A stretch of 64,000 nucleotides of DNA. It comes from Branchipolynoe longqiensis (lineage: Eukaryota > Annelida > Polychaeta > Phyllodocida > Polynoidae). Below are positions 1,861 to 60,030 of this stretch, in pieces. Below the pieces are notes generated by a model. The model ran no database searches, had not been told where the DNA came from, and saw only the letters and a program-made list of their open reading frames with translations. The translations under genes were made by a program, and so were the position numbers. The stretch's first letter is position 1; the number at the start of each line of letters is the position of its first letter. Where the stretch lies: positions 130,268,424 to 130,332,423 of the forward strand of contig CM059187.1 of NCBI GenBank assembly GCA_030323885.1. The letters run 5' to 3'.

Positions 1861-2389
1861 TCAGGGTCTCTATGGTTGAACTATTGTTATTTGTGCTCGG
1901 CAGATCCTTCACGGTGACATTAGTCAGGGAATACTTACTGACTAGGAAAGTAGTAGAATTCATCATATCGCTTAAAATAAAATTGAAGGCTTTTGAGTAG
2001 GCCACATAAGCTATGTAAGTCAACCCCCTTCCCTCTGTGACGTCACAGCAGTACATCTAGTAATCTAGTAATAGTAAATCACGTGATACTCAGTATCAGT
2101 CTAATGATGCTGGACAGATCCGTTGCTACCTACTGGGTTTGGTTTACGCTAAAATAATCTATTTGAAGTGCATTGCAATTGATCTTTCTGGAGTATGCAT
2201 ATTATGGTAAGATATCGAATAGCCATCCAAGGAGCAGAGAGATCGTTGAATCAAATTGCACTAGGGTTAAGCTTAGGGTCATGTCAGTTATATAATTCTC
2301 GGAGATAATGACCAGATTTGGTGCCCAAAATGATATCTCATGGGAGGTCAATTATTTCGTAGGAATCAATTATTTAGCTTTTTAGCTGC
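1861..2389. other. Non-coding DNA, no recognised feature
   Basis: I see no gene. A 68-codon open frame on the minus strand (1850-2056) mixes repeat-derived and unique sequence, without recognisable similarity. Confidence 0.5.
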
Positions 2390-4195
2390 CTTGTCATACA
2401 CATATTCTTTCAAAGAAGTGACTTATTTAGCTTGATAACTACGTTACCGGACATGTATTATTTCACAGGAGTTAGTTATTTGGCTTCAAAACTGCATTGT
2501 CATACATGTATTATTTCACATGAGTCAGTTATTTAGCTTCAAAACTGCATTGTCATACATGTATTATTTCACATGAGTCAGTTATTTAGCTTCATAACTG
2601 CATTGTCATACATGTATAATTTCCCACGAGTCAGTTATTTAAATTCATAACTGCATTGTCGTACATGTATTATTTCACAGGAGTCAGTTATTTACCTTCA
2701 TAATTGCACTGTCATACATGTATTATTTCCCTCGAGTCAGTTATTTAACTTCATATTTGCACTGTCACACATGTATTATTTCACTGGAGTTAGTTATTTA
2801 AGTTCATAACTGCATTGTTATACATGTATTATTTCCCACAACTCAGTTATTTACCTTTATAACTTCACTGCCATACATGTATTATTTCGCAGGGTCAGTT
2901 ATTTAACTTCATAACTGCATTGTCATACATGTATTATTTCCCACGAGTCAGTTATTTAACTTCATAACTGCATTGTCGTACATGTATTATTTCACAAGAG
3001 TCAGTTATTTAACTTCATAACTGCATTGTCAGACATGTATTATTTCACAGGAGTCTGTTATTTAACTTCATAACCGCATTGTCACACGTGTATGATTTCA
3101 TTTGAATTATTTCACAAGAGTCAGTTATTTACCTTCATAACTACACTGTCATACATGTATTATTTCACAGGAGTCAGTTATTTAACTTCATAACTGCATT
3201 GTCATACATGTATTATTTCCCACGAGTCAGTTATTTAACTTCATAACTGCATTGTCGTACATGTATTATTTCACAAGAGTCAGTTATTTAACTTCATAAC
3301 TGCATTGTCAGACATGTATTATTTCACAGGAGTCTGTTATTTAACTTCATAACCGCATTGTCACACGTGTATGATTTCATTTGAATTATTTCACAAGAGT
3401 CAGTTATTTAACTTCATAACTACACTGTCATACATGTATTATTTCACAGGAGTCAGTTATTTAACTTCATAACTACACTGCCATACATGTATTATTTCAC
3501 AAGAGTCAGTTATTTAACTTCATAACTACACTGCCATACATGTATTATTTCACAAGAGTCAGTTATTTAACTTCATAACTACACTGCCATACATGTATTA
3601 TTTCACAAGATTCAGTCATTTAGTTTCATAACTGCATTGTCATACATGTAATATTTCACATGAGTCTGTTATTTAACTTCATAACTGCATTGTCACACTT
3701 GTATTATTTCACTTGAATTATTTCACAAGAGTCAGTTATTTACCTTCATAACTGCATTGTCATACATGTATTATTTCACAAGATTCAGTCATTCAGCTTC
3801 AAAACTGCATTGTCATATATGTAATATTTCACAGGAGTCAGTTATTTAACTTCATAACTGCATTGTTATACATGTAATATTTAACAAGAGTCAGTTATTT
3901 AACTTCATAGCTGCATTGTCATACATGTAATATTTAACAAGAGTCAGTTATTTAACTTCATAGCTGCATTGTCATACATGTAATATTTAACAAGACTCAG
4001 TTATTTAACTTCATAGCTGCATTGTCATACATGTAATATTTAACAAGAGTCAGTTATTTAACTTCATAGCTGCATTGTCATACATGTAATATTTAACAAG
4101 AGTCAGTTATTTAACTTCATAGCTGCATTGTCATACATGTATTATTTCACACGAGTCAGTTATTTAACTTCATAACTGCATTGTCACACGAGTCA
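2390..4195 (+). repeat. Satellite: about 34 copies of a 53-bp unit
   Basis: The unit runs from gagtcagttatttaacttca through cataactgcattgtcataca to tgtattatttcacaa, 53 bp in all. Most copies differ by a few substitutions. Irregular units containing cacgtgtatgatttcatttg recur at about 3083 and 3361, with a related one at about 3693. The last part (about 3850-4140) has homogeneous copies carrying atttaacaagagtcag, pointing to local recent amplification. Confidence 0.9.
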
Positions 4196-8208: not shown

Positions 8209-8410
8209 GACATGATTGTATGTATTGTATATATGCCATGAGCAGAACAAGAATATATGCCATGGTGAATACCCACAGTCCAATCACGGCAATATGCGAT
8301 TGTGACAGATTGCATGGCATTAATATTAACGGTCGTTAGTGTGGCACAGTTAGCAGGTGTATATACATATATATACACATATATATACATATATATATAT
8401 ATATATCTAT
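7376..8410. other. Non-coding DNA with long (TA)n tracts
   Basis: No gene. TA microsatellites lie at about 7914-8005, 8172-8204 and 8380-8407, and open frames across them are Ile/Tyr repeats. Confidence 0.65.
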
Positions 8411-8664
8411 GAGCCTGTCTCAAAGGGTGATAACTCTTATTTTGTTGTCCATTGTAACGATTGACACAAAGCAGCACAGAAACAGTTTCACTGAAAACAC
8501 AAAGACATTTGCTTCAAATCATTATGTATTCTAGTGGGATTATGAAACACCATGTAAAAAACAAATCAGTTTATCCTGAGCAAATGCATAAGCAGATAGT
8601 ATGTTGATTGTTACAATGGACAAAGTTTTATCCCATATTGCTTAGCACCTTTTGAGACAGTCTC
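8411..8664 (+). mobile_element. 254-bp MITE (GAGCCTGTCTC termini), copy 1
   Basis: It starts GAGCCTGTCTCAAAGGGTGA and ends accttttgagacagtctc, so the termini are inverted repeats of about 20 bp. Sub-terminal ccattgtaacgattga and ttacaatgg extend the symmetry. It sits in a (TA)n tract, consistent with a TA target. No coding frame. A second copy of identical length is at 17804-18057. Confidence 0.85.
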
Positions 8665-9165
8665 ATATACATATAAAGCATCCATTGAGGAAAATCACAG
8701 TAATATGTGGGCCAATCAGTATTCACTCTTTCCCTTTGTTCACTCTGATGTTTCTTGTTGTAAATATCCAAATTCGTTGGATTGAATTTTTTTTTACAAT
8801 TTTAGCCGATGATTCTGTGAATGGCCCCTACCTTTTGACGTCCCTAAATATTTTCTGCTCGACCCTGAACCAATATCTTGGTTGGATTCGAACTCTCGGG
8901 TTCGAATATTAATTAAGTAATGTACAAAATAGAAGTGAAATCCATCTCAGAAATTGAAACCTTTTATTTCTATCCATATTAGGCGCAGATCAATGTCATT
9001 CAATTCTGATAATGAGACATCGGCTATTTCAATTTGATTAAACCATGACAGTAACACGACCGACACAACTTTACTTATCCATATATATCATGATCCAGTG
9101 TGACTAGCCATAGCTTATAATATATATTAATTACATTGCACTACAACTACTAGATTGTTCAGTAG
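8665..9165. other. Non-coding DNA, no recognised feature
   Basis: An 86-codon plus-strand open frame (8652-8912) overlaps the MITE end and shows no recognisable domain. I see no supported gene. Confidence 0.45.
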
Positions 9166-28867: not shown

Positions 28868-29557
28868 TATATTAGGCCTGTGCATTTCTTGTGTATGTAT
28901 TATGTATACATATACGTCTGCATGTAACGGATTGGTCAGCCATTGTATAAGAAGCCTGCACATCTGCACCTGCTGGTGTATTTAAGAGCTGACAAACATT
29001 ACCTCAGGGGAGAAGGGTGCTACAAAGCAGGTGTGAGATCTGAGGCAAAATATGTAAATTAAACCTTCTTCTAAAATGGATTAGGCTCACGGGTGGCGCT
29101 TGGTTGGTGTCCTTCCCCCTCATCACCGATGAGGAAAAGTTGTGATTCCTACTAGAAAGGGAAGAAGGATTTCCTCCGGCCTCATAAGACCACTCCGTGG
29201 TTCAGCATAACAGGGTTGGCTTCGGTATCTGGTAACCATGGGATAATTCCCGAAACACCATACGCCTTACCCTCAGCCGTAGTTCTGGGATCAATCCACA
29301 AACACTAGACCTACCTGCCCTGTGCCCTTAGATGAACAGCTCGCCCTACAGAGTGTGGGTAGTACCAAACACAATGTCTGACAAGATGCCCGGGAAATAC
29401 AGCAAACAAGGTAATTAATTGGACAGGGCCCCTAGCCCAGCCTGACTGCTGTACCGTTGAACCAAGGGGACAGGTTCCTTAGCCCACCCTGACTGTTGTA
29501 CCATCAAAGACAATGTGCAACAATTATAGTGTATTTATAGTGTATTATCTCTTAACA
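28868..29557. other. Non-coding DNA
   Basis: No gene. A short direct repeat (cctagcccagcctgactgct and ccttagcccaccctgactgt) occurs near 29429 and 29472. Confidence 0.4.
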
Positions 29558-33488: not shown

Positions 33489-33665
33489 GGGGGTGATGAA
33501 AATGGGAAACACCGCGCCTAGAGCGGGACTCGAACCCACATCTCTTTGCATTCCGGGCCAGTGTGCTAACCATTACACCACCTAGGCTCCCTGATATCAA
33601 CACACTCCCCATGCCTACCTGTCTATGTGGTTACTTGCCTGAGAGGTCAGTGCAGACCACTACAC
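33489..33665 (-). mobile_element. tRNA-derived SINE (family 2), copy 1
   Basis: On the minus strand the sequence gagcctaggtggtgtaatgg ... tgggttcgagtcccgctcta resembles a tRNA with A and B boxes and a closing CCTAG/CTAGG stem. The unrelated part toward the plus-strand right contains tgtctatgtggttacttgcc. It is nearly identical to 33811-33987. Confidence 0.75.
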
Positions 33666-33810: not shown

Positions 33811-33987
33811 GGGGGTGATGAAAATGGGAAACACCGCGCCTAGAGCGGGACTTCGAACCCACATCTCTTTGCATTCCGGGCCAGTGTGCTAACCATTACA
33901 CCACCTAGGCTCCCTGATATCAACACACTCCCCACGCCTACCTGTCTATGTGGTTACTTGCCTGAGAGGTCAGTGCATACCACTACA
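33811..33987 (-). mobile_element. tRNA-derived SINE (family 2), copy 2
   Basis: Differs from copy 1 by only a few bases, including one added t in the B-box region (gggacttcgaacccac). Spacing to copy 1 is 322 bp, so local duplication is as likely as two insertions. Confidence 0.75.
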
Positions 33988-36898: not shown

Positions 36899-37284
36899 TT
36901 CCTTCCAGTCCACAAATAAATGCCCACTCATTCCCCATCAACCCCCCCCCCCCCACACACACATTGCTGCACCTCACACACACAGACAATGATGGGCATA
37001 ATATTGAGGCATCATGGGACATACTGTAAATCTCTGCCAATGATAGCAGTGGGTCACGATCATCCACGCCACCGCCACATACCGACAAAACAACCGCACA
37101 CTGCTCCCCCCCCGCCCCCCACACACCCACACCCACACCCACACCCACACCCACATCCACACCCACACCCAAACCCACCATACACACCCGCACCACCACC
37201 AGAGCCACCCGGGAATCGTTAGTATAGTAGTCTCCCGGTCACTCCAGTTAAGTTGACTGATTTAAAGGTGTATTATTTACTTAT
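35646..37284. other. Non-coding DNA with several simple repeats
   Basis: No gene. Poly-C runs are at about 35724 and 36018, a (CTTT)n tract at about 36858-36900, and (ACCCAC)n at about 37120-37170. Frames crossing these are low complexity. Confidence 0.5.
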
Positions 37285-37448
37285 TTAAAGTTGCATAATC
37301 CAATAAAAGAATAACATTTTCAAAATCAAAGCACTTGCCTATATTTGATCCGCCATATCCAACTTAGATACTGATGCACTTTTGCAAACATGTATTACTG
37401 CACATAAGGAATATCGAGTCACTTTAATAGATACAGTCAGCTCTAGTT

Positions 37449-38196
37449 GATGCGCGAGAAGGAAGAACAGAGGCGGAGGTGGGAAAACTGAAGCGTTTAT
37501 TGTGACGCCTCGGGCAACATACAGAGAAACAGTGAAATAACAATAAATGACAAAGTAAGGTACAAACAGGGTAACTGAGGAGGTAAACAGGCTGAGGAGG
37601 CAGAGCAATACAGGGGGCTCATGAGGAGCAGGGGGCTCGCGAGGAGCAAGAGTCAGGGGCTCATGAGGAGCAGAGGATAAATAGTGAGGGGCTCATAAGG
37701 AGCAGTGTAATAATGAGGATAAAGGGCTCAAAAGGAGCTGGTAAGAGAGTCAGTGTGGGGCTCAGATGGGTAACGGGGAAGAGAGAGGTAAATAAGGAAC
37801 AAGGATAAAATGATGATGAGCGGAGTAGCTAAGGAGCAGAGTTCAAAAGTCAGTGGAGTGAGGGGGTGCCGAGGAGCCCTCCACCGCAGAGGGGGGAGGG
37901 TAGAGGAGGGGGAGTTGGGTGGGTGGGTGGAGAAGAAGAAGGGGCAGAGAGCTGGAAGGCGGCTGGAGGCTGAGTGCCTGAGGGAGGCCGGCGGGCGGCC
38001 TTATAAGGGGGGAAGTGAGCAGAGGCAGGAGGGGGGTGAGTCGCTCAGGGCCGGGGGGAGGTGAGCAGTGGCGGGGGTGAGTCGCTCAGGGGCGGGGGGA
38101 GGTGAGCAGTGGCAGGAGGGGGGGGGTGAGTCGCTCAGGGCCGGGTGAGTCGCTCTCCCTCCCCTCGCATCAAACGAAATGCTTCGCATTACGACC
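37449..38196 (-). repeat. Concatemer unit 1 (748 bp)
   Basis: It starts GATGCGCGAGAAGGAAGAAC and ends atgcttcgcattacgacc, joining unit 2 with no extra base. It contains gggctcatgaggagcag-type subrepeats and a gtgagtcgctcagggc series. On the minus strand a perfect CCTTATAAGG lies upstream and AATAAA near the far end. Confidence 0.9.
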
Positions 38197-38945
38197 GATG
38201 CGCGAGAAGGAAGAACAGAGGCGGAGGTGGGAAAACTGAGGCGTTTATTGCGACGCCTCGGGCAACATACAGAGAAACAGTGAAATAACAATAAATGACA
38301 AAGTAAGGTGCAAACAGGGTAACTGAGGAGGTAAACAGGCTGAGGAGGCAGAGCAATACAGGGGGCTCATGAGGAGCAGGGGGCTCGCGACGAGCAAGAG
38401 TCAGGGGCTCATGAGGAGCAGAGGATAAATAGTGAGGGGCTCATAAGGAGCAGTGTTAATAATGAGGATAAAGGGCTCAGAAGGAGCTGGTAAGAGAGTC
38501 AGTGTGGGGCTCAGATGGGTAACGGGGAAGAGAGGTAAATAAGGAACAAGGATAAAATGATGATGAGCGGAGAGTAGCTAAGGAGCAGAGTTCAAAAGTC
38601 AGTGGAGTGAGGGGGTGCCGAGGAGCCCTCCGCCGCAGAGGGGGGAGGGTAGAGGAGGGGGAGTTGGGTGGGTGGGTGGAGAAGAAGAAGGGGCAGAGAG
38701 CTGGAAGGCGGCTGGAGGCTGAGTGCCTGAGGGAGGCCGGCGGGCGGCCTTATAAGGGGGGAAGTGAGCAGAGGCAGGAGGGGGGTGAGTCGCTCAGGGC
38801 CGGGGGGAGGTGAGCAGTGGCGGGGGTGAGTCGCTCAGGGGCGGGGGGAGGTGAGCAGTGGCAGGAGGGGGGGGGTGAGTCGCTCAGGGCGGGGTGAGTC
38901 GCTCTCCCTCCCCTCGCATCAAACGAAATGCTTCGCATTACGACC
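38197..38945 (-). repeat. Concatemer unit 2 (749 bp)
   Basis: Nearly identical to unit 1 over its whole length, with the same ends and the same small differences from the long unit 3. It carries no coding frame. Confidence 0.9.
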
Positions 38946-39345
38946 GATGCGCGAGAAGGAAGAACAGAGGCGGAGGTGGGGAAAACTGAGGCGTTTATTG
39001 CGACGCCTCGGGCAACATACAGAGAAACAGTGAAATAACAATAAATGACAAAGTAAGGTACAAACAGGGTAACTGAGGAGGTAAACAGGCTGAGGAGGCA
39101 GAGCAATACAGGGGGCTCATGAGGAGCAGGGGGCTCGCGAGGAGCAAGAGTCAGGGGCTCATGAGGAGCAGAGGATAAATAGTGAGGGGCTCATAAGGAG
39201 CAGTGTAATAATGAGGATAAAGGGCTCAGAAGGAGCTGGTAAGAGAGTCAGTGTGGGGCTCAGATGGGTAACGGGGAAGAGAGGTAAATAAGGAACAAGG
39301 ATAAAATGATGATGAGCGGAGTAGCTAAGGAGCAGAGTTCAAAAG

Positions 39346-39933
39346 TCAGTGGAGTGAGGGGGTGCCGAGGAGCCCTCCACCAAAAGTAGGAGAGGGCTTG
39401 AGGCGCGCCCGAGGTGATGATCCGAGGCGGGGGTCCGGGGGTGGAGGTCTGGGCGGAGAAAGCTGGCGGCGCGCCCGAGGCGGAGCAGGTGGGGGGGGCC
39501 GGCCGAGCGGTGGGCCGTGTCGGGGGTCAGGCTCCCTCTCGGGGCGGGAAGTGTCAGGGGCCTGCATCGACAGGGGGCGGGCGGCCAAAAAAGGGAAGGC
39601 CCGCTCCTTGGCGGGATCCGGTGAGGAGGTCCGACCAGGGTCGATCAGGGGGGCAGCGAACTCCTCGGGGCTGGATGGGGTGGTGGTCGGGGTCTGGGCG
39701 GAGTTGAAGGCGGTGTCGTGAGGATCGGTGGCAGAGGGTTCCTCCTGAGGCTGGGCTGGGATGCGGTCCGAGGTGTGATGCCCGAGGTGATGATCCTCGG
39801 CTGGGGCTTGGCGGCGCTGCGTTCGATGGTCACTGGGAGGTTGTCGGCTGGGCTTGCGGGGCTGTCGGCAGTGGTGGGGGTGAGGCGCCGGAGGGGTCCC
39901 CCCGGGCCGGCCGGGGGGAGGCCGGCGGATCAA
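39346..39933 (-). CDS. Proline-rich open frame overlapping the small protein's end
   Basis: The frame runs 195 codons from a TTG at 39933 (no ATG at its beginning), in the -1 frame relative to the upstream 108-codon frame, overlapping it at a run of five T. The product is extremely rich in Pro, Arg and Ser, with RPPPAPPRARRQ-type segments. High GC content makes chance open frames common here, so it may be non-coding. If real, expression would need a frameshift or splicing. Confidence 0.25.
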   Translation of the reverse strand: MIRRPPPGRPGGTPPAPHPHHCRQPRKPSRQPPSDHRTQRRQAPAEDHHLGHHTSDRIPAQPQEEPSATDPHDTAFNSAQTPTTTPSSPEEFAAPLIDPGRTSSPDPAKERAFPFLAARPLSMQAPDTSRPEREPDPRHGPPLGRPPPPAPPRARRQLSPPRPPPPDPRLGSSPRARLKPSPTFGGGLLGTPSLH

Positions 39934-40256
39934 AAATCCGCCGAGGTGGGGGGGGTCTGGCGCTCACGGGCTTGCTTGGTGATGCAGTCGGCCTCCGAGT
40001 GCATAGTGAGTACGCGCCTCACGTTTGCGCAGTAGGCGCATGCGTGACGGCGCTTGTCCCCCGCCTCGCCGTGGGCTTCCGCGACGGAAGACCGGTCGCA
40101 CGAGGCGGGGTCTCGGTTCCAGGCCGGGCAGGGAGCCCCGTGAGTGAGCCTGTCGTAGGCGACTCGGGCGTCGACTTGGACTCGGGTGAAGTGGGGGGCT
40201 CGGTGTGGAGGGTCGAGTTGGCGGGGTGCGATGGCGGTAGTCTGCTGAGGTGGCAT
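39930..40256 (-). CDS. Small protein with a CX2CX9HX4C motif, encoded in the long unit
   Basis: The frame starts MPPQQTTAIAPRQLDPPHRA and is 108 codons long. Residues about 75-93 read CAYC, nine residues, H, four residues, C, a zinc-knuckle-like spacing longer than the CX2CX4HX4C of retroviral-type nucleocapsids. The C-terminus is basic. The start is the first ATG about 100 bp downstream of the TATA-like CCTTATAAGG. The frame ends TTT TGA, and a frame shifted by -1 stays open for 195 further codons (to 39346). A gag-like or DNA-binding role is inference; no enzyme domain is present. Confidence 0.45.
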   Translation of the reverse strand: MPPQQTTAIAPRQLDPPHRAPHFTRVQVDARVAYDRLTHGAPCPAWNRDPASCDRSSVAEAHGEAGDKRRHACAYCANVRRVLTMHSEADCITKQARERQTPPTSADF

Positions 40257-40358
40257 GGCTATACATTCGACCCTAAGGAGGTTCAGGGCCAGAAGAAGAA
40301 GGGGCAGAGAGCTGGAAGGCGGCTGGAGGCTGAGTGCCTGAGGGAGGCCGGCGGGCGG

Positions 40359-40368
40359 CCTTATAAGG
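40359..40368 (-). promoter_or_regulatory. CCTTATAAGG: TATA-like / perfect CArG sequence
   Basis: The palindrome CCTTATAAGG fits both a TATA-like core promoter element and the CArG consensus bound by SRF-type MADS factors. It is present at the same place in units 1 and 2 (near 38000 and 38749). It lies about 100 bp upstream of the ATG of the minus-strand frame in unit 3. Confidence 0.4.
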
Positions 40369-40590
40369 GGGGAAGTGAGCAGAGGCAGGAGGGGGGTGAG
40401 TCGCTCAGGGCCGGGGGGAGGTGAGCAGTGGCGGGGGTGAGTCGCTCAGGGGCGGGGGGAGGTGAGCAGTGGCAGGAGGGGGGGGGGGTGAGTCGCTCAG
40501 GGCCGGGTGAGTCGCTCTCCCTCCCCTCGCATCAAACGAAATGCTTCGCATTACGACCAATCCGACACTGGTTAATCCAACAATTTTGCG

Positions 40591-41035
40591 TAAGGCCCAG
40601 TCATACATCACCGGACTGAGTACCGGACACCACCGGACAAAGAATTTTCTAGTCCGATGGTGTTCGGTATCAAAATGTACCGAAATGTACTGAAATGTAC
40701 TGGACGAAACAAACGCTAAACGGACAAGGAACGTACATTAATGAATAGCCACCGGACAATAACCGGACGATCACGGGACGAAAACCGAATGTCTAACGGA
40801 CGGACCAGACACCAACCGGACACCAACCGAATACCAACCGGGAACCTACCGGACTGTTCATGGACGCGCCAAAAACTGACGGACCAAATTCCCGCAGCAC
40901 CGTAAACGGACTCTGCATGAAGCAAACCGGAGATGTAACGGATAGATAATGGACACAAACCACCACAAAATAGTCTAAATTGGTTAATCCCACAATTTGC
41001 TATCCGACATTATTTGGTGTGTGACAGAATGTGTC
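40591..41035 (+). mobile_element. Foldback element, family D (ACCGGACACC words)
   Basis: It starts at taaggcccagtcatacatca and is filled with accggac / gaccaacc-type words (caccggac, taccggac, caaccggaca). A candidate right terminus, ttggtgtgtgacag at about 41020-41033, mirrors the left end imperfectly, so the right border is uncertain. It lies inside the CAGT element. Confidence 0.55.
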
Positions 41036-41330
41036 AGATTAACCAGAGCTGACTGTATAACCTGTCACTAGTGGGAGTGATTCAACGCTATGATGTCTAT
41101 CATTTTGATATGCACACCACAATTATTGTGCATCTTTTCACATCAAATTATCTCTATAGTTAGCCATTTAAAAATATTTAAAAACCGATACTCTAAAGTA
41201 AAGCAAAAAAATAGCATCAGCGCGATCAGACTAATATGTATCCACACATATAGCAGAAACTCAAAAACTTCAGATTATGGAACTTCAACTGGATAGTTAA
41301 CACAACAACACAAATGCACCCAACTAACGA

Positions 41331-48057: not shown

Positions 48058-48446
48058 CTACTTCATATTCTCAATTACACATTTACTTGTTGTGTCTGCC
48101 AGGTTGATCACTTCCAGATATTTTGAGTAATAATCTACAATTAACATGTAATTCTTGTTATTGCAATGAAACAAATCCACCCCCACTTTGTAGAACGGGA
48201 TATCTGGTATGTTATGAGAGGCTCTTTGTGAGGGTGTGTTCCTATGGATTGGCATACCTGACACCTCAATACCTTGTCCTGCAACTGGCTATTAAATCCT
48301 GGCCAGTAGACATAGTCTCGGGCCAGTTGTGTACTTTTAATTATGCCTAAGTGTGCACTGTGTAACTTGTTCAGGATCTGTTTCTGGCATAACTTTGGAA
48401 TTACTATTCTGTTCTGTTTTAGGATGAGAATCTTTTTGATTGTCAA
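48058..48446 (-). pseudogene. gypsy integrase zinc-binding domain and core start
   Basis: Two overlapping frames together cover the region. One has LNKLHSAHLGIIKSTQLARD, then YVYWPGFNSQLQDKVLRCQV and CQ, the HHCC-type domain of gypsy integrases. The other, after a frameshift, has FYKVGVDLFHCNNKNYMLIV and DYYSKYLEVINL, the core start with its first catalytic Asp (VDLF) and the DYYSKY signature. Confidence 0.75.
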
Positions 48447-48472
48447 TTCGTCTCTGTAGGTGGAATATGGTT

Positions 48473-48860
48473 TTACATCATGATCAATTTCATTGTTTTG
48501 TCCTGGCCACCCTCATGGATGTACTTGGTCAGCTTCTGAAGTGTCTGGTCTTGCGGGGTTTTGTTTGCAATGTGAGTTATTTTGTCTTCGATGTACTCTA
48601 ATACTGCAACAGATACATTATCATCATATAAGTTAATCGGCTGGGTATTTGTTGTGTGTGCGCTCGACAAGGCATCGGCGAAAAACATGTTTACACCTTT
48701 AACATATTCCAATTTTAGATCATAATTTTGCAATCGTAACCTCCTTAAATCTTTTACACCTTTAACATATTCCAATATGTGTGCAATGGTTTCGACATAA
48801 TACTAACATGGGGCTTGTGATCCGTTTCGACCTTGTCACTCCATAGTCACACAACAATTT
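48473..48860 (-). pseudogene. gypsy RNase H C-terminal remnant
   Basis: The minus strand reads VETDHKPHVSIMSKPLHTYW, leaves frame, then LRRLRLQNYDLKLEYVKGVN and MFFADALSSAH. ETDHKP and FADALSR are signatures of the RNase H end of gypsy polymerases. A short duplication (tttacacctttaacatattc occurs twice, 48690 and 48756) breaks the frame. Confidence 0.75.
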
Positions 48861-52739: not shown

Positions 52740-54764
52740 GCTGTATGCAGGTAATGCAGGTATTGCAGGTATATCAATACCTCAGGGAGTTTGACGCCCC
52801 TGCTCTGCAGAGTTGTAAACCACTCTCTTGTGGTAAAGGTTCCTGACAGAACCGAAGGCTAAGGGAGCAAACCCTACACAGAAAACCATGTCACTGTGGC
52901 AGCATTAAGAGCGGTTGATGTATGAAACTCCCAACATCTCCTGACCAGCCACTGCAGGGACAAATAGTTTTGCGCCTGTCTTGACATGTTCTTGCTGGTG
53001 TGAAACCTCTATTTTCTCCACGAGAGAGTGCCGCTGGTAACTTGCAAAAGCCAGCAGCACTTCAACACTTTTGTGGGCAGCTTTCATGAAATGTGACATA
53101 GATCACAAAGCTCTGGACAACATCCAGCAGCGCAATACCAAAACATGCCTCAATGAGATTCCAACCATGGATGAGATGGCTAGAGCAATCGCCAGCCTGA
53201 AAGATGGCAAAGCACCTGGGGGTGATGGAATTCCTGCTGAAGTATGGAAGCACGGAGGAGACAATCTGTTCAACAGACTGCACCAACTAATCACCAATGC
53301 CTGGGAGGAGGGTTCTGTACCCCAAGCATGGAAGGATGCCAGCATTGTAACCATCTAGAAGAAAGGTGATCAAACAGACTATGGGAACTATAGAGGAATC
53401 TCTCTTCTTTCCATAGCAGGCAAGATCTTCGCCAGGATCCTCCTCAACAGACTATCTATTCACATAACACCTGATGTAGTTCCGGAGTCACAGTGTGGCT
53501 TCAGAGGTAACCGGAGCACCGTGATATGATATTTTGTCTCCGACAGCTACAAGAAAAGTGCATTGAGCAGGACCGACCACTGTACATGGTATTTGTCGAT
53601 TTCACTAAGGTGTTTGATACAGTTGGGAGGACCGGGCTATGGCAGCTACTGAGGAAGTATGGATGCCCAGAGAAGTTCAGAACTATGATCGAGGCTCTAC
53701 ATATAGGAATGATGGCTAACGTTAGTGTTGGAGGGGAAGTCTCAGAATCATTTTGGGTTTCCAATGGGGTCAAGCAAGGTTGTGTACTGGTCCCCCACGC
53801 TCTTCTCCATCTTCCTATCAGCAATGCTCGACGAGGCTTTCCAAGACATGGGGGATGGCATCTATATACAGTCCAGACAGAGCGCTGACCTACTCAATGT
53901 CACACACTTCAGAGCGAAGACCAAGACTACCCGGATACTGGTGAGAAAGCTGCTATTCGCAGATGACAGTGGACTGGTTGCCCACTCTGCTGAAGAGATC
54001 CAGAAAATAGTGGATGCTTTCTCTGATGCATCAAAGAAGTTTGGCCTGAAGATTAACATCAAGAAGACGGAGGTGCTGTACCAACCCAACTCTACAAGAA
54101 CCCGAGAGGAGGAGATCATGGTTGATGGAAACAAGCTGAACTCTGTTCTGGAATTCACCTACCTCGGAAGCACTATATCAAGTGATGGATGTATTGATGC
54201 TGAAATAGAGAGGAGGATGGTCAAGGCTAGCGGATGACTATGCCAGAGACTCTGGAACAACCACCATGTGTCCATTTGGGACAAAGGCAAGATCTACCGT
54301 GCAATCGTGCTATCCACCCTACTATAGGGAGCCGAGGCCTGGACAGTGTACAGACGACAGGTGAAAAAGCTGCATGCCTTCATGATGCGACATCTGCATT
54401 CATTCATGAGGCTAACCTGGAAGGACAAAGTGACAAATAAGGAAATACTCGAACGGACGGGGCTGCCTTCTATGAAAGATCTTCTGATCAAAAAGAATCT
54501 CCGGTGGACTGGAAACCTCATGAGGATGTCATCAGACAGGCTACCAAAGCAGATCCTCTATTCTCAACTGTCTTCTGGTTACAGAAAGAGAGGGTGTCCT
54601 CGTCTCCGGTTCAAGGATACCATCAAGAGAAACCTGAAGCTGAGAGACATTAAGACCGACTCATGGACACAACTCTCACAGCAGAGAGCTAAATGGAGAG
54701 CGGCAGTCAAGTAATGAAATCAGTCTTTGTCGCATGGCGATCGACAGCATGATGATGATGATGA
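52740..54764 (+). mobile_element. RTE-like element, internally deleted copy
   Basis: It has the same 5' region as the intact copy (atcaatacctcagggagttt), the same 3' end (gacagcatgatgatgatgat), and a 12-bp direct repeat tatatactgtat on both sides (52728-52739 and 54765-54776). About 1.5 kb is missing at 53091, corresponding to intact positions about 56851-58352. Extra gcaggta repeats precede the 5' end. Confidence 0.9.
53089..54714 (+). pseudogene. RTE polyprotein pseudogene lacking the endonuclease
   Basis: The residual coding sequence matches the intact protein from about residue 503 to its end. Damage includes the deletion of the whole endonuclease, a TAG at 53356 (Tyr in the intact copy), a one-base loss near 53523, an added C near 53793, a 12-base loss and stop near 54232, and a TAG at 54326. 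The reverse-transcriptase blocks KDGKAPGGDGIPAEVWK and LLFADDSGLVAHSA are still readable. It cannot make a functional enzyme. Confidence 0.9.
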
Positions 54765-56519: not shown

Positions 56520-59500
56520 ATGCAGGTATAGCAATACCTCAGGGAGTTTGACGCCCCTGCCTTGCAGAGTTCTAAACCACTGCCTTGTGGTACAGGTCCT
56601 TGACAGAACCGAAGGCTAAGGGAGCAAACCCTAAACAGAAAACCATGTCACTGTGGCAGCATTAAGGGCGGTTGATGTATGGAACTCCCAACATCTCCCG
56701 ACCAGCCACTGCAGGGACAAATAGTTTTGCGCCTGTCTTGACATGTTCTTGCCGGTGTGAAACCTCTATTTGCTCCCCGAGAGAGTGCCGCTGGTAACTT
56801 GCAAAAGCCAGCAGCACTTCAACACTTTTGCAGGCAGCTTTCATGAAATGTACAACCGCACAAAACACCATACCGGCTCGGTCGTCGCCCGGGTTATCAA
56901 GGACCGCGCTGCTCGAGCTCATCTTCCGTCGACAGCGGAAAATCAGCTAGGAGGAACACAACGCAACACAACACAACTACTGACAATTGCCCAATGGAAC
57001 GTCAGGACTCTTCTCGACCGAGAAGCAGCTGACCGACCAGAAAGACGTACGGCACTAGTAGCAATGGAACTGGCAAAATACAACATCGACATTGCCGCCC
57101 TATGCGAAACAAGGTTCTCAGAGTCTGGTAGTCTCAATGACCTGGAATACTCTTTCTTCTGGAGTGGCAAACCCGAAGGAGAGAGAAGGGAGGCAGGAGT
57201 GGGCTTTGCTATCAAAAAGGACATCGTCACAAAGCTGATAGAAATGCCACGGCCAGTAAGTGACAGAATCATGACGATGAGACTACCTTTGAGCAAGGAC
57301 AACTTTGCTACAATTATCAGTGTGTACGCTCCAACAATGACAAACCCAGATGATAACAAGGAGGCCTTCTACAACCAGTTGGCAAGTACACTCAGTGACA
57401 TCCCTCACACGGATAAGCTACTGCTGATGGGAGACTTCAATGCAAGGATAGGAAGAGAAAATGACAAGTGGCCCTTGGTCATGGGCAAACATGGAATCGG
57501 GAAATGCAACTCCAATGGTGAGCTCCTACTGGCTTTGTGCTCTGAGTTCGAACTGATAGTAACAAACACCATGTTCAAACAGAAGGATGAACGCAAGACC
57601 ACTTGGATGCATCCTCGTTCCAGGCACTGGCATATGATCGACTTCATCATCACAAGGTGCCGGGATAAGATGGACATCCACAGTACTCGAGCCATGCGTG
57701 GAGCTAACTGCTGGACCGATCACCAGATGCTAAGGTCAAAAGTGGCATTCAGAATACGAGAAAAACACAACAGGCAAGGGACAAATAAACCAACAAAGCT
57801 CAACACAGCAAAATTAAGTACCATCAGTCACAGAGAGAGCTTCAAGCAGGAGATGGACAGCGCTCTCGCACAATGGGAGGAGAAGGAAAGCCCAACACCA
57901 GATGAGGAATGGGCAGCGTTGCAGCAGGTTGTATACAACACAGCTAAAACTTATCTCGGCAAGCCAGACAGAAAACATCAGGACTGGTTCGACCCCAACA
58001 ATCAGGAGCTACAGAATCTTATGAGCAGAAGAGACCAAGCCCACCAGAGAGTGTTGCAGACCAGGAACACTAGATCCACCACTGCAGCATACAAAGATGC
58101 CTGCAGATTGCTACAAAAATGCACCCGTGCATTGAAGTCAGACTGGTGGGAAATGAAGGCAGAGGAGCTGCAGAGAGCTGCAGACAGAAACAACATGAAG
58201 GGCTTCTACAGCGGACTGAAGGAAGTGTGGGGACCCGTGAAGAAGGGAGCTGTTCACCTGAAATCAACAGATGGAACGGAGACCTTTTCCGACAGCAAGA
58301 GAGTTGTGGCAAGATGGTGCGAACACTTCCAGAAGCTACTCAACGTCCCTGGCGACATAGATCACAAAGCTCTGAACAACATCCAGCAGCGCATTACCAA
58401 AACATGCCTCGATGAGATTCCAACCATGGATGAGATGGCTAGAGCAATCGCCAGCCTGAAAGATGGCAAAGCACCTGGGGGTGATGGAATTCCTGCCGAG
58501 GTATGGAAGCATGGAGGAGACAATCTGCTCAAAAGACTGCACCAACTAATCACCAATGCCTGGGAGGAGGGTTCTGTACCCCAAGCATGGAAGGATGCCA
58601 GCATTGTAACCATCTACAAGAAAGGTGATCGAACAGACTGTGGGAACTATAGAGGAATCTCTCTTCTTTCCATAGCAGGGAAGATCTTCGCCAGGATCCT
58701 ACTCAACAGACTATCTATCCACATAACACCTGGTGTAGTTCCAGAGTCACAATGTGGCTTCAGAGGTAACCGGAGCACTGTGGATATGATATTTTGTCTC
58801 CGACAGCTACAAGAAAAGTGCATTGAGCAGGACCGACCACTGTACATGGTATTTGTCGATTTCACTAAGGCATTTGATACAGTCGGGAGGACCGGGCTAT
58901 GGCAGCTACTGAGGAAGTATGGATGCCCAGAGAAGTTCACAACTATGATCGAGGCTCTACATACAGGAATGATGGCGAACGTTAGTGCTGGAGGGGAAGT
59001 CTCGGAATCATTTGGGGTTACCAATGGGGTCAAGCAAGGTTGTGTACTGGCCCCCACGCTCTTCTCCATCTTCCTATCAGCAATGCTAGACGAGGCTTTC
59101 CGAGACATGGGGGATGGCATCTATATACAGTCCAGACAGAGCGCTGACCTATTCAATGTCGCACACTTCAGAGCGAAGACCAAGACTACTCAGATACTGG
59201 TGAGAGAGCTACTATTCGCAGATGACAGTGCACTGGTTGCCCACTCTGCTGAAGAGACCCAGAAAATAGTGGACGCTTTCTCCGATGCATCAAAGAAGTT
59301 TGGCCTGAAAATTAACATCAAGAAGACGGAGGTGCTGTACCAACCCAACTCTACAAGAACCCGAGAGGAGGAGATCATGGTTGACGGAAACAAGCTGAAC
59401 TCTGTTCTGGAATTCACCTATCTCGGATGCACTATATCAAGTGATGGACGCATTGATGCTGAGATACAGAGGAGGATGGCCAAGGCTAGCGCATCTTTCG

Positions 59501-60030
59501 GCCGACTACGCCAGAGACTCTGGAACAACCACCATGTGTCCATTCGGGTCAAAGGTAAGATCTACCGCGCAATCGTGCTATCCACCCTACTATACGGAGC
59601 CGAGGCCTGGACAGCGTACAGACAGCAGGTGAAAAAGCTGCATGCCTTCATGATGCGACATCTGCGTTCAATCATGAGGCTAACCTGGAAGGACAAAGTG
59701 ACGAATAAGGAAATACTCGAACGGATGGGGCTGCCCTCTATGGAAGATCTTCTGATCAAAAAGAATCTCCGGTGGACTGGACACCTCATGAGGATGTCAT
59801 CAGACAGGCTACCAAAGCAGATCCTCTATTCTCAACTGTCTTCTGGCTACAGAAAGAGAGGGCGCCCCCGTCTCCGGTTCAAAGATACCATCAAGAGAAA
59901 CCTGAAGCTGAGAGACATTAAGACCGACTCATGGACACAACTCTCACAGCAGAGAGCTAAATGGAGAGCGGCAGTCAAGTAATGAAAGCAGTCTTTGTCG
60001 CATCGCGACCGACAGCATGATGATGATGAT
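56520..60030 (+). mobile_element. Full-length RTE-like non-LTR retrotransposon
   Basis: About 3.5 kb: a 328-bp 5' region, one long frame, a 48-bp 3' untranslated part and a (GAT)n tail. It is bounded by a perfect 13-bp direct repeat GGTTTAACGGGGT (56507-56519 and 60031-60043). A very short 3' region ending in a short-repeat tail, a single APE-type endonuclease plus reverse transcriptase frame and no LTRs are characteristic of the RTE clade. The intact frame and unmutated duplication suggest a recent insertion. Confidence 0.9.
56848..59982 (+). CDS. RTE endonuclease / reverse transcriptase polyprotein
   Basis: The protein would nick target DNA and copy its own RNA at the nick (target-primed reverse transcription). 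From the ATG at 56848 the frame is 1044 codons with no interruption; the frame is open 26 codons further up but without an ATG. Residues about 45-300 form an APE-type endonuclease: QWNVRT (50-54), CETR with Glu 87, SVYAP with Tyr 160, GDFNA with Asp 196 and Asn 198, IDF with Asp 265 and TDH with His 292. Residues about 470-820 are the reverse transcriptase: KDGKAPGGDGIPAE, NYRGISLLS, FVDFTKAFD with Asp 671, NGVKQGCVLAPTLFS, and FADD with Asp 792 and 793. The C-terminal 200 residues hold the conserved LLYGAEAW and KKLHAFMMRH segments. All catalytic residues that I can place are present, so activity is plausible. Confidence 0.9.
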   Translation: MYNRTKHHTGSVVARVIKDRAARAHLPSTAENQLGGTQRNTTQLLTIAQWNVRTLLDREAADRPERRTALVAMELAKYNIDIAALCETRFSESGSLNDLEYSFFWSGKPEGERREAGVGFAIKKDIVTKLIEMPRPVSDRIMTMRLPLSKDNFATIISVYAPTMTNPDDNKEAFYNQLASTLSDIPHTDKLLLMGDFNARIGRENDKWPLVMGKHGIGKCNSNGELLLALCSEFELIVTNTMFKQKDERKTTWMHPRSRHWHMIDFIITRCRDKMDIHSTRAMRGANCWTDHQMLRSKVAFRIREKHNRQGTNKPTKLNTAKLSTISHRESFKQEMDSALAQWEEKESPTPDEEWAALQQVVYNTAKTYLGKPDRKHQDWFDPNNQELQNLMSRRDQAHQRVLQTRNTRSTTAAYKDACRLLQKCTRALKSDWWEMKAEELQRAADRNNMKGFYSGLKEVWGPVKKGAVHLKSTDGTETFSDSKRVVARWCEHFQKLLNVPGDIDHKALNNIQQRITKTCLDEIPTMDEMARAIASLKDGKAPGGDGIPAEVWKHGGDNLLKRLHQLITNAWEEGSVPQAWKDASIVTIYKKGDRTDCGNYRGISLLSIAGKIFARILLNRLSIHITPGVVPESQCGFRGNRSTVDMIFCLRQLQEKCIEQDRPLYMVFVDFTKAFDTVGRTGLWQLLRKYGCPEKFTTMIEALHTGMMANVSAGGEVSESFGVTNGVKQGCVLAPTLFSIFLSAMLDEAFRDMGDGIYIQSRQSADLFNVAHFRAKTKTTQILVRELLFADDSALVAHSAEETQKIVDAFSDASKKFGLKINIKKTEVLYQPNSTRTREEEIMVDGNKLNSVLEFTYLGCTISSDGRIDAEIQRRMAKASASFGRLRQRLWNNHHVSIRVKGKIYRAIVLSTLLYGAEAWTAYRQQVKKLHAFMMRHLRSIMRLTWKDKVTNKEILERMGLPSMEDLLIKKNLRWTGHLMRMSSDRLPKQILYSQLSSGYRKRGRPRLRFKDTIKRNLKLRDIKTDSWTQLSQQRAKWRAAVK

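Follow-up and report, generated by a model that had tools for sequence, protein, structure and literature searches.

A stretch of 64,000 nucleotides from the polynoid annelid Branchipolynoe longqiensis (contig CM059187.1, positions 130,268,424 to 130,332,423; hereafter the window) carries, at positions 37449-40558, an array of three head-to-tail units inserted into another mobile element. Very probably, the array represents a single copy of an abundant and young retroelement family of the tyrosine-recombinase (Ngaro-like) class that is non-autonomous and would code only for Gag, insert as a circle at T|AA without target duplication and borrow its reverse transcriptase (RT) and recombinase, the window copy having gained a surplus terminal unit. 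Three features carry this reading: a plan of split direct repeats that recurs across the genome, insertion without target duplication, and homology of the internal reading frame to the Gag of an element that also encodes RT and a recombinase-like protein.

Layout of the array and of its genome copies

The three units, of 748, 749 and 1613 bp, completely fill the interval. A sequence-only reading of the window had reported that they join flush, and their borders indeed read ACGACC|GATGCG with zero extra bases. Exact matches to the two ends of the unit (35 bp at the 5' side, 33 bp at the 3' side) number exactly three each in the window, all of them at unit borders. The outer borders of the array consist of the same ends as the inner ones, and the host element, which we take to be pogo-like, continues across the array uninterrupted and without a target duplication. 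The array is flanked by CTAGTT|AATCCGAC, and the opposite terminus of the host, read on the other strand, is the matching CTGGTTAATCTGAC, so that this part of the sequence-only reading also holds. The host element has CAGTCAGCTC inverted termini with TA on both sides and measures 512 bp once the array is removed; the window contains no N bases. Between units 1 and 2 there are 7 substitutions and 3 indels. The 436 bp on the left and the 268 bp on the right are common to all three units, but in unit 3 these parts are ~0.9 kb apart, compared with ~45 bp in units 1 and 2; the array is therefore not three copies of one 748-bp unit.

Searching the 1.85-Gb genome with unit 2 returned at least 75 matching places (40 of 2501 candidates scored), and the best 30 of these places correspond to 29 loci, the window among them. 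At 24 of the 29 loci a second unit start lies flush on the first, and in 22 of those 24 the second start spans the entire left 435 bp and extends into unit 3's internal sequence, being shorter in L036 and L039. The remaining five loci (L033, L041, L048, L052 and L054) have a single unit start; single units with both flanks read are those at L033, L041, L048 and L052. A complete element of ~3.19 kb is present at L055, L056 and L057 (98.5-99% identity) and consists of a unit, the left part, ~1.75 kb of internal sequence and the right part. Seven loci other than the window, read end to end (L055, L056, L057, L058, L059, L070 and L082; 2.6-3.2 kb), show on the minus strand the plan A1-internal-B1-A2-B2, in which a first pair of repeats is split by internal sequence; at L058, L059, L070 and L082 (2.6-3.1 kb) the internal sequences or repeat lengths are different, yet the plan is kept. 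The window copy departs from it in having ~903 bp of internal sequence, compared with ~1750 bp at L055-L057, and a third unit start.

Nor is the inter-unit junction peculiar to the window. Its exact 21-base sequence occurs 464 + 440 = 904 times in the genome, a count of junctions rather than elements that misses inexact junctions, whereas the reversed control occurs 0 times, which excludes chance. The inter-unit junction is thus an ordinary internal feature (B1|A2) of an element with split direct repeats, and only the third unit is surplus. The sequence-only reading had called the array a concatemer, which does not serve as its main description. On this plan the features of the insertion, by position in the window, are as follows.

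37449..40558, minus strand: whole insertion, A1-gag remnant-B1 / A2-B2 / surplus A-B
38946..40558, minus strand: unit 3 (1613 bp), A1 plus shortened internal region plus B1
40291..40558, minus strand: A1 repeat, 268 bp, with TATAA at 40365
39930..40256, minus strand: C-terminal part of a gag-like open reading frame (ORF), motif HACAYCANVRRVLTMHSEADC; the upstream part of the L055 ORF is missing
39346..39963, minus strand: proline-rich frame after gag, in a different frame; no Pfam match
38946..39381, minus strand: B1 repeat, 436 bp, with AATAAA at 38999
38197..38945, minus strand: unit 2, A2-filler-B2, 749 bp, the element's normal end
37449..38196, minus strand: unit 1, surplus A-filler-B, 748 bp
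38186..38206, no strand: B/A junction GCATTACGACC|GATGCGCGAG; second copy at 38935-38955
37434..37448, no strand: left end of the host element, CAGTCAGCTCTAGTT, preceded by TA
40559..41055, no strand: remainder of the host element, with its inverted end at 41037-41055, then TA

The outermost B repeat of the array has its AATAAA at 37501. A near-palindrome, GAGTCGCTC, occurs four times per A repeat in all three A repeats of the window (e.g. 38038-38155); these near-palindromes are possible candidates for protein-binding iterons.

Target site, Gag and class assignment

With five duplicate entries removed, T immediately preceded the unit in 34 of 39 left flanks (window background of T, 0.278) and the two bases past the far end were AA in 12 of 13 right flanks (window background of AA, 0.081), which identifies T|AA as the insertion target. 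Both flanks were available at 16 loci, the window included; AA was found on the right in 15 of them and T on the left in 14, the exceptions on the left being G at L049 and A at L083. Exact repeats of 2-12 bp shared by left and right flank, as a target duplication would leave, were found at 0 of the 16 loci. The duplication-free insertion seen in the window therefore extends to other loci with the same ends, as the genome search proposed along with the sequence-only reading now shows. Tyrosine-recombinase retrotransposons of the Ngaro-like class are not known to make target duplications. Together with its preceding base, the junction contains CGCAT-N8-ATGCG, a possible candidate for a recombinase site; its arms are 5 bp long, and a general description of such sites gives arms of typically 11-13 bp (PMC3212892).

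The internal frame at L055 is 437 codons long, stop to stop. A genome search with this frame found at least 97 matches (96 of 43732 candidates scored), and the best 12 are all free of stops. The L055 ORF can be aligned over 269 columns (27% identity, E 2e-20) with the Gag-like frame of another element, the neighbor of the L055 copy. That neighbor (L055:3464-8917) contains, besides its gag-like frame, an RT (RVT_1, E 3e-14) and a recombinase-like frame with an HxxR...Y pattern (HSMRRGG...CHWTSDAVHDY), judged by eye, pieces of which had no Pfam match. It also has split repeats of its own (A at 3464-3755 and 8461-8752, 96.6% identical; B at 8309-8437 and 8790-8917, 97.7% identical), and we read it as a Ngaro-like element separate from the present family and beside a family copy by chance. 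Gag homology, layout and the missing target duplication together place the family in the same class as such gag-RT-recombinase elements with split repeats. The sequence-only reading thus pointed the right way when it suggested an integrated circle or an element of tyrosine-recombinase type. Two further observations concern coding sequence at family loci: L056:6587-8945 (minus strand) holds another RT with a tyrosine-recombinase-like frame recognized by eye, and from L058:3225 onward a family copy directly adjoins RT-like coding sequence, again judged by eye.

By our own Nei-Gojobori count, the ratio of nonsynonymous to synonymous substitution rates (dN/dS) between the L055 and L082 Gags is 0.43 over 420 codons and 0.22 in the core, and the partial Gags of L062 and L063, which represent two further subfamilies, give 0.30 and 0.35 relative to L055; the ORF thus looks to be under selection. 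A CX2C...H...C motif can be recognized by eye, and five unnamed database proteins match the full-length L055 ORF at 39-45% identity. The gag remnant of the window, taken alone, had no homologue in a database search, and its length is not beyond chance, being reached by 379 of 500 shuffles.

Between A1 and B1, the seven end-to-end members have an interior of ~1.3-2.0 kb. This could not accommodate RT, RNase H and recombinase together, and all long frames on its sense strand resemble gag or are proline-rich. As neither RT nor recombinase is seen in the copies read, the family appears to be gag-only, and lacking these genes the element is not itself a full Ngaro.

The repeats also behave largely as expected for this class, in which each cycle would regenerate the repeat pair. 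Across 12 loci of mixed subfamilies (L063, having one start, was left out), B1 and B2, compared over their first 255 bp, show 95-100% identity when they come from one locus, whereas the 66 pairs drawn from different loci average 70%; the B partner is the nearest sequence, or tied for nearest, in 11 of the 12. A1 and A2 are 99.2% identical in L070 and 98.4% in L082.

A number of points weigh against this assignment. The loci were gathered with the family's own sequence as query and hence are not a random sample. With regard to the target, the right flank of L082 does not start with AA (1 of 13), a final T is missing from 5 of 39 left flanks, one of which (L064) resembles a degenerate unit end, and the left flank of L083 is A. 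The flanks of L059 share a 6-base near-match with 1 mismatch, although one such locus in 16 is about what chance gives (mean 1.4 with re-dealt flanks). With regard to coding content, Gag matches no Pfam family (L055 and window frames); RT, RNase H and recombinase were not seen in the seven members, of which the profile search covered only the L055 frames, together with those of the window; and none of the loci read yielded a helper that has these ends. With regard to the repeats, L059 fails the mixed-subfamily B1/B2 test, and in the youngest subfamily B1 and B2 are a median of 0.7% apart within loci compared with 0.9% between, and the partner ranks nearest, or ties for nearest, in 5 of 54; the mean is inflated by L036, L039 and L058, which are truncated or carry deletions. 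Pairs in this subfamily are barely closer than unlinked copies, so the B-pair test is not decisive there. Finally, we infer the circle, RNA and recombinase steps of the model below, whereas layout, ends, target, junction number, repeat tracking and Gag conservation are observed.

In that model, RNA would run from the TATA box in A1 (TATAA at 40365) to AATAAA in a B repeat (38999 in B1, or 37501 in the outermost B), Gag would package the RNA, and a helper element would supply RT and tyrosine recombinase. The internal B1-A2 copy would then, according to the model for this class, allow completion of a circular double-stranded DNA with joined ends, which on the sense strand would read CGCGCATC|GGTCGTAATG. 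A recombinase would insert this circle at T|AA without creating a duplication; the flanks are as observed, and the enzyme is presumed. The window would thus have received a normal A1-gag-B1/A2-B2 copy with a shortened internal region, and the surplus A-B unit would have been added at the element's own junction by a further circle or a single-unit element, or by unequal exchange between repeats.

The surplus unit and alternative explanations

A scan of 33 locus entries, representing 30 loci, showed three unit starts in the window alone. Arrays of this kind exist elsewhere: among 100 of the 904 junction places, we noted by eye three pairs of same-strand neighbors less than 4 kb apart, and all three, once fetched, proved to be multi-unit arrays. 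L083 is arranged as short, short, long and L085 as short, long, long, with three unit starts each, while L084 has a first unit without a found start, followed by two long ones. In L083 two of the three B parts are 98% alike, whereas that of the outer unit is only 82-83% like either of them, so this array must have taken up sequence of another subfamily. Its units 1 and 2 nevertheless have A parts that are identical over 230 bp, and exchange, to judge from these sequences, has also acted there. Because L083 is such a mosaic, it does not cleanly separate accretion from exchange.

The alternative that survives best concerns the surplus unit and not the class of the element. It holds that unequal crossing over in the inserted element, without a site-specific step, was the sole source of unit 1, and we give it somewhat less than an even chance. 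Misaligned A or B repeats would give flush junctions; units 1, 2 and 3 of the window are ~1% apart with no derived substitution common to two of them; and the identical A parts in L083 are what exchange would leave, whereas the entry of other-subfamily sequence into the outer B of L083 speaks against it. The copy nearest to window unit 1 is the unlinked L027 (3 differences in 745), and unit 2 is farther from unit 1, at 7 differences in 746. Judged by sequence, these distances lie within the noise of a star-like family, in which site-specific accretion and unequal exchange are inseparable as origins of unit 1.

Before the genome was consulted, the window seemed to fit best with a non-autonomous Helentron or Helitron2, a rolling-circle element whose three units would stem from terminator read-through or repeated insertion at the 5' end. 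Helentron/HINE and Helitron2 elements are described as making no target duplication, having a hairpin near one end and occurring in tandem copies (PMC4067079, PMC3627910, PMC5148889). The array likewise lacks a target duplication and has a 7-pair hairpin 3 nt from its plus-strand 3' end (2 of 200 shuffles fold as well; z -3.0). It also has GATGCG at the 5' end and CGCATC 25 nt from the 3' end, positions that match those published for Helitron2 (456 of 20000 shuffles), and T|A insertion and three tandem copies are reported for fungal Helitron2-like elements. These signs proved weak. Of 20000 shuffles, 491 match the hairpin stem near the 3' end, and such stems abound in the window, where 3725 of 63975 25-mers contain one of 5 bp. 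The asymmetric terminal inverted repeats of 8-15 bp that mark such elements were not found, the longest inverted repeat between the ends being 6 bp, which 607 of 2000 shuffles reach at any offset and which is thus not beyond chance when the offset is free. Helentrons and Helitron2 elements lack a split-repeat plan enclosing gag, and a rolling-circle origin leaves unexplained both the flush second start at 24 of 29 loci and the homology to the Gag of an element bearing RT and recombinase. We dropped this reading because the genome showed a fixed split-repeat plan, and we now regard it as very improbable; the rolling-circle option in the sequence-only reading thus finds no support in the genome data.

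Still less probable is a long terminal repeat (LTR) retrotransposon, in which the unit would be the LTR and the array a recombination product. The unit does contain TATA and AATAAA on the minus strand, and single units resemble solo LTRs, but the 16 loci with both flanks show no target duplication, abutting repeats have no interior between them, and the coding region interrupts a repeat (A1...B1), where an LTR element would have a complete repeat on each side of it. An assembly artefact is just as hard to credit: repeats that are 98% identical are prone to misassembly, yet each unit has private changes of its own, the content of unit 3 is different and the two-unit core recurs at many loci. 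A satellite, which had been suggested in site-specific form from the sequence alone, was considered and set aside in favor of an element with split direct repeats; so were a retrozyme, as Rfam matches included no hammerhead ribozyme even at a permissive threshold (E up to 5), and a Crypton, weighed against published descriptions, with no Crypton search made. The pattern of the 3' end had 0 matches in viral contigs and 1 in prokaryote genomes, and that of the 5' end matched 23 viral stretches; in these collections alignments to the array were only short, the best spanning 17-23 bases, and we take them as chance.

Elsewhere the window contains several further features. An open 1073-aa frame of a long interspersed nuclear element (LINE), with endonuclease and reverse transcriptase, lies at 56761-59982 (plus strand), and its best well-covered database protein, an unnamed one, is 93% identical over the part searched; a decayed relative was recognized by eye at 53041-54714. 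Judging by its repeats and by the database matches of this frame, the window looks metazoan. Two matches to transfer RNA (tRNA) in Rfam, perhaps tRNA-derived short interspersed nuclear elements, are at 33515-33587 and 33837-33910 (minus strand), and a fragment with an integrase zinc-binding domain (Integrase_H2C2), perhaps an LTR-element remnant, is at 48141-48512 (minus strand). Just left of the host element, 37260-37435 is a dispersed repeat with sequences 75-79% alike at 29533, 5497, 1313 and elsewhere, and 2351-4186 is a minisatellite of 53-bp units with 67-bp variants.

Relation to known elements and significance

The split direct repeats found here are the layout of the Ngaro, PAT and VIPER tyrosine-recombinase retrotransposons, so that the family has known relatives and is not the undescribed system that the window alone had suggested. 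Ngaro-like elements are described as A1-[ORFs]-B1-A2-B2 (PMC9210276, PMC8547959). The present family shares this plan, with gag as its coding part, and its Gag is homologous to that of an RT- and recombinase-bearing split-repeat element of the same genome; it differs in that the copies read code only for gag and in the surplus terminal unit of the window. PAT-like elements (DIRS order) also have split direct repeats, and Pat1 is reported to have a zinc finger in its Gag (PMC4157794), to which the CX2C...H...C motif seen by eye in the family Gag may be compared; PAT elements, however, carry RT, methyltransferase and recombinase, and RT and recombinase were not seen in the members read here. SIRE, a short VIPER derivative of kinetoplastids, corresponds to A2-B2 with a unique middle of ~30 bp (PMC6681497), much as the single units here are A-filler-B with ~45 bp of filler. 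SIRE belongs to another host, the likeness is one of description, and longer gag-coding forms are common among our copies. The same source describes TATE, another kinetoplastid tyrosine-recombinase retroelement, in tandem clusters (PMC6681497); unlike the present family, TATE sits in telomeric repeats and has its own RT and recombinase genes.

In the literature, which was searched only partly for this class, we noticed no account of such a gag-only family, which does not prove that none exists. Non-autonomous tyrosine-recombinase retroelements seem to be little described, SIRE of VIPER being the clear case that we met. A tentative and, in our estimate, rather unlikely extension is that the family would be a highly successful gag-only parasite of a tyrosine-recombinase retroelement, with Gag kept by selection for packaging its own RNA, with RT and recombinase borrowed, and with ends that would act as attachment sites where further circles dock on copies already in place, building mixed tandem arrays.

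Rolling-circle replication should not be presumed wherever repeats lie cleanly head to tail with no target duplication, as the split-repeat plan mimics a concatemer once the coding part is shortened. With its hundreds of junctions, sharp T|AA target and natural multi-unit arrays, this young gag-only family offers material for testing how complementary DNA is completed, how circles form and how they integrate.

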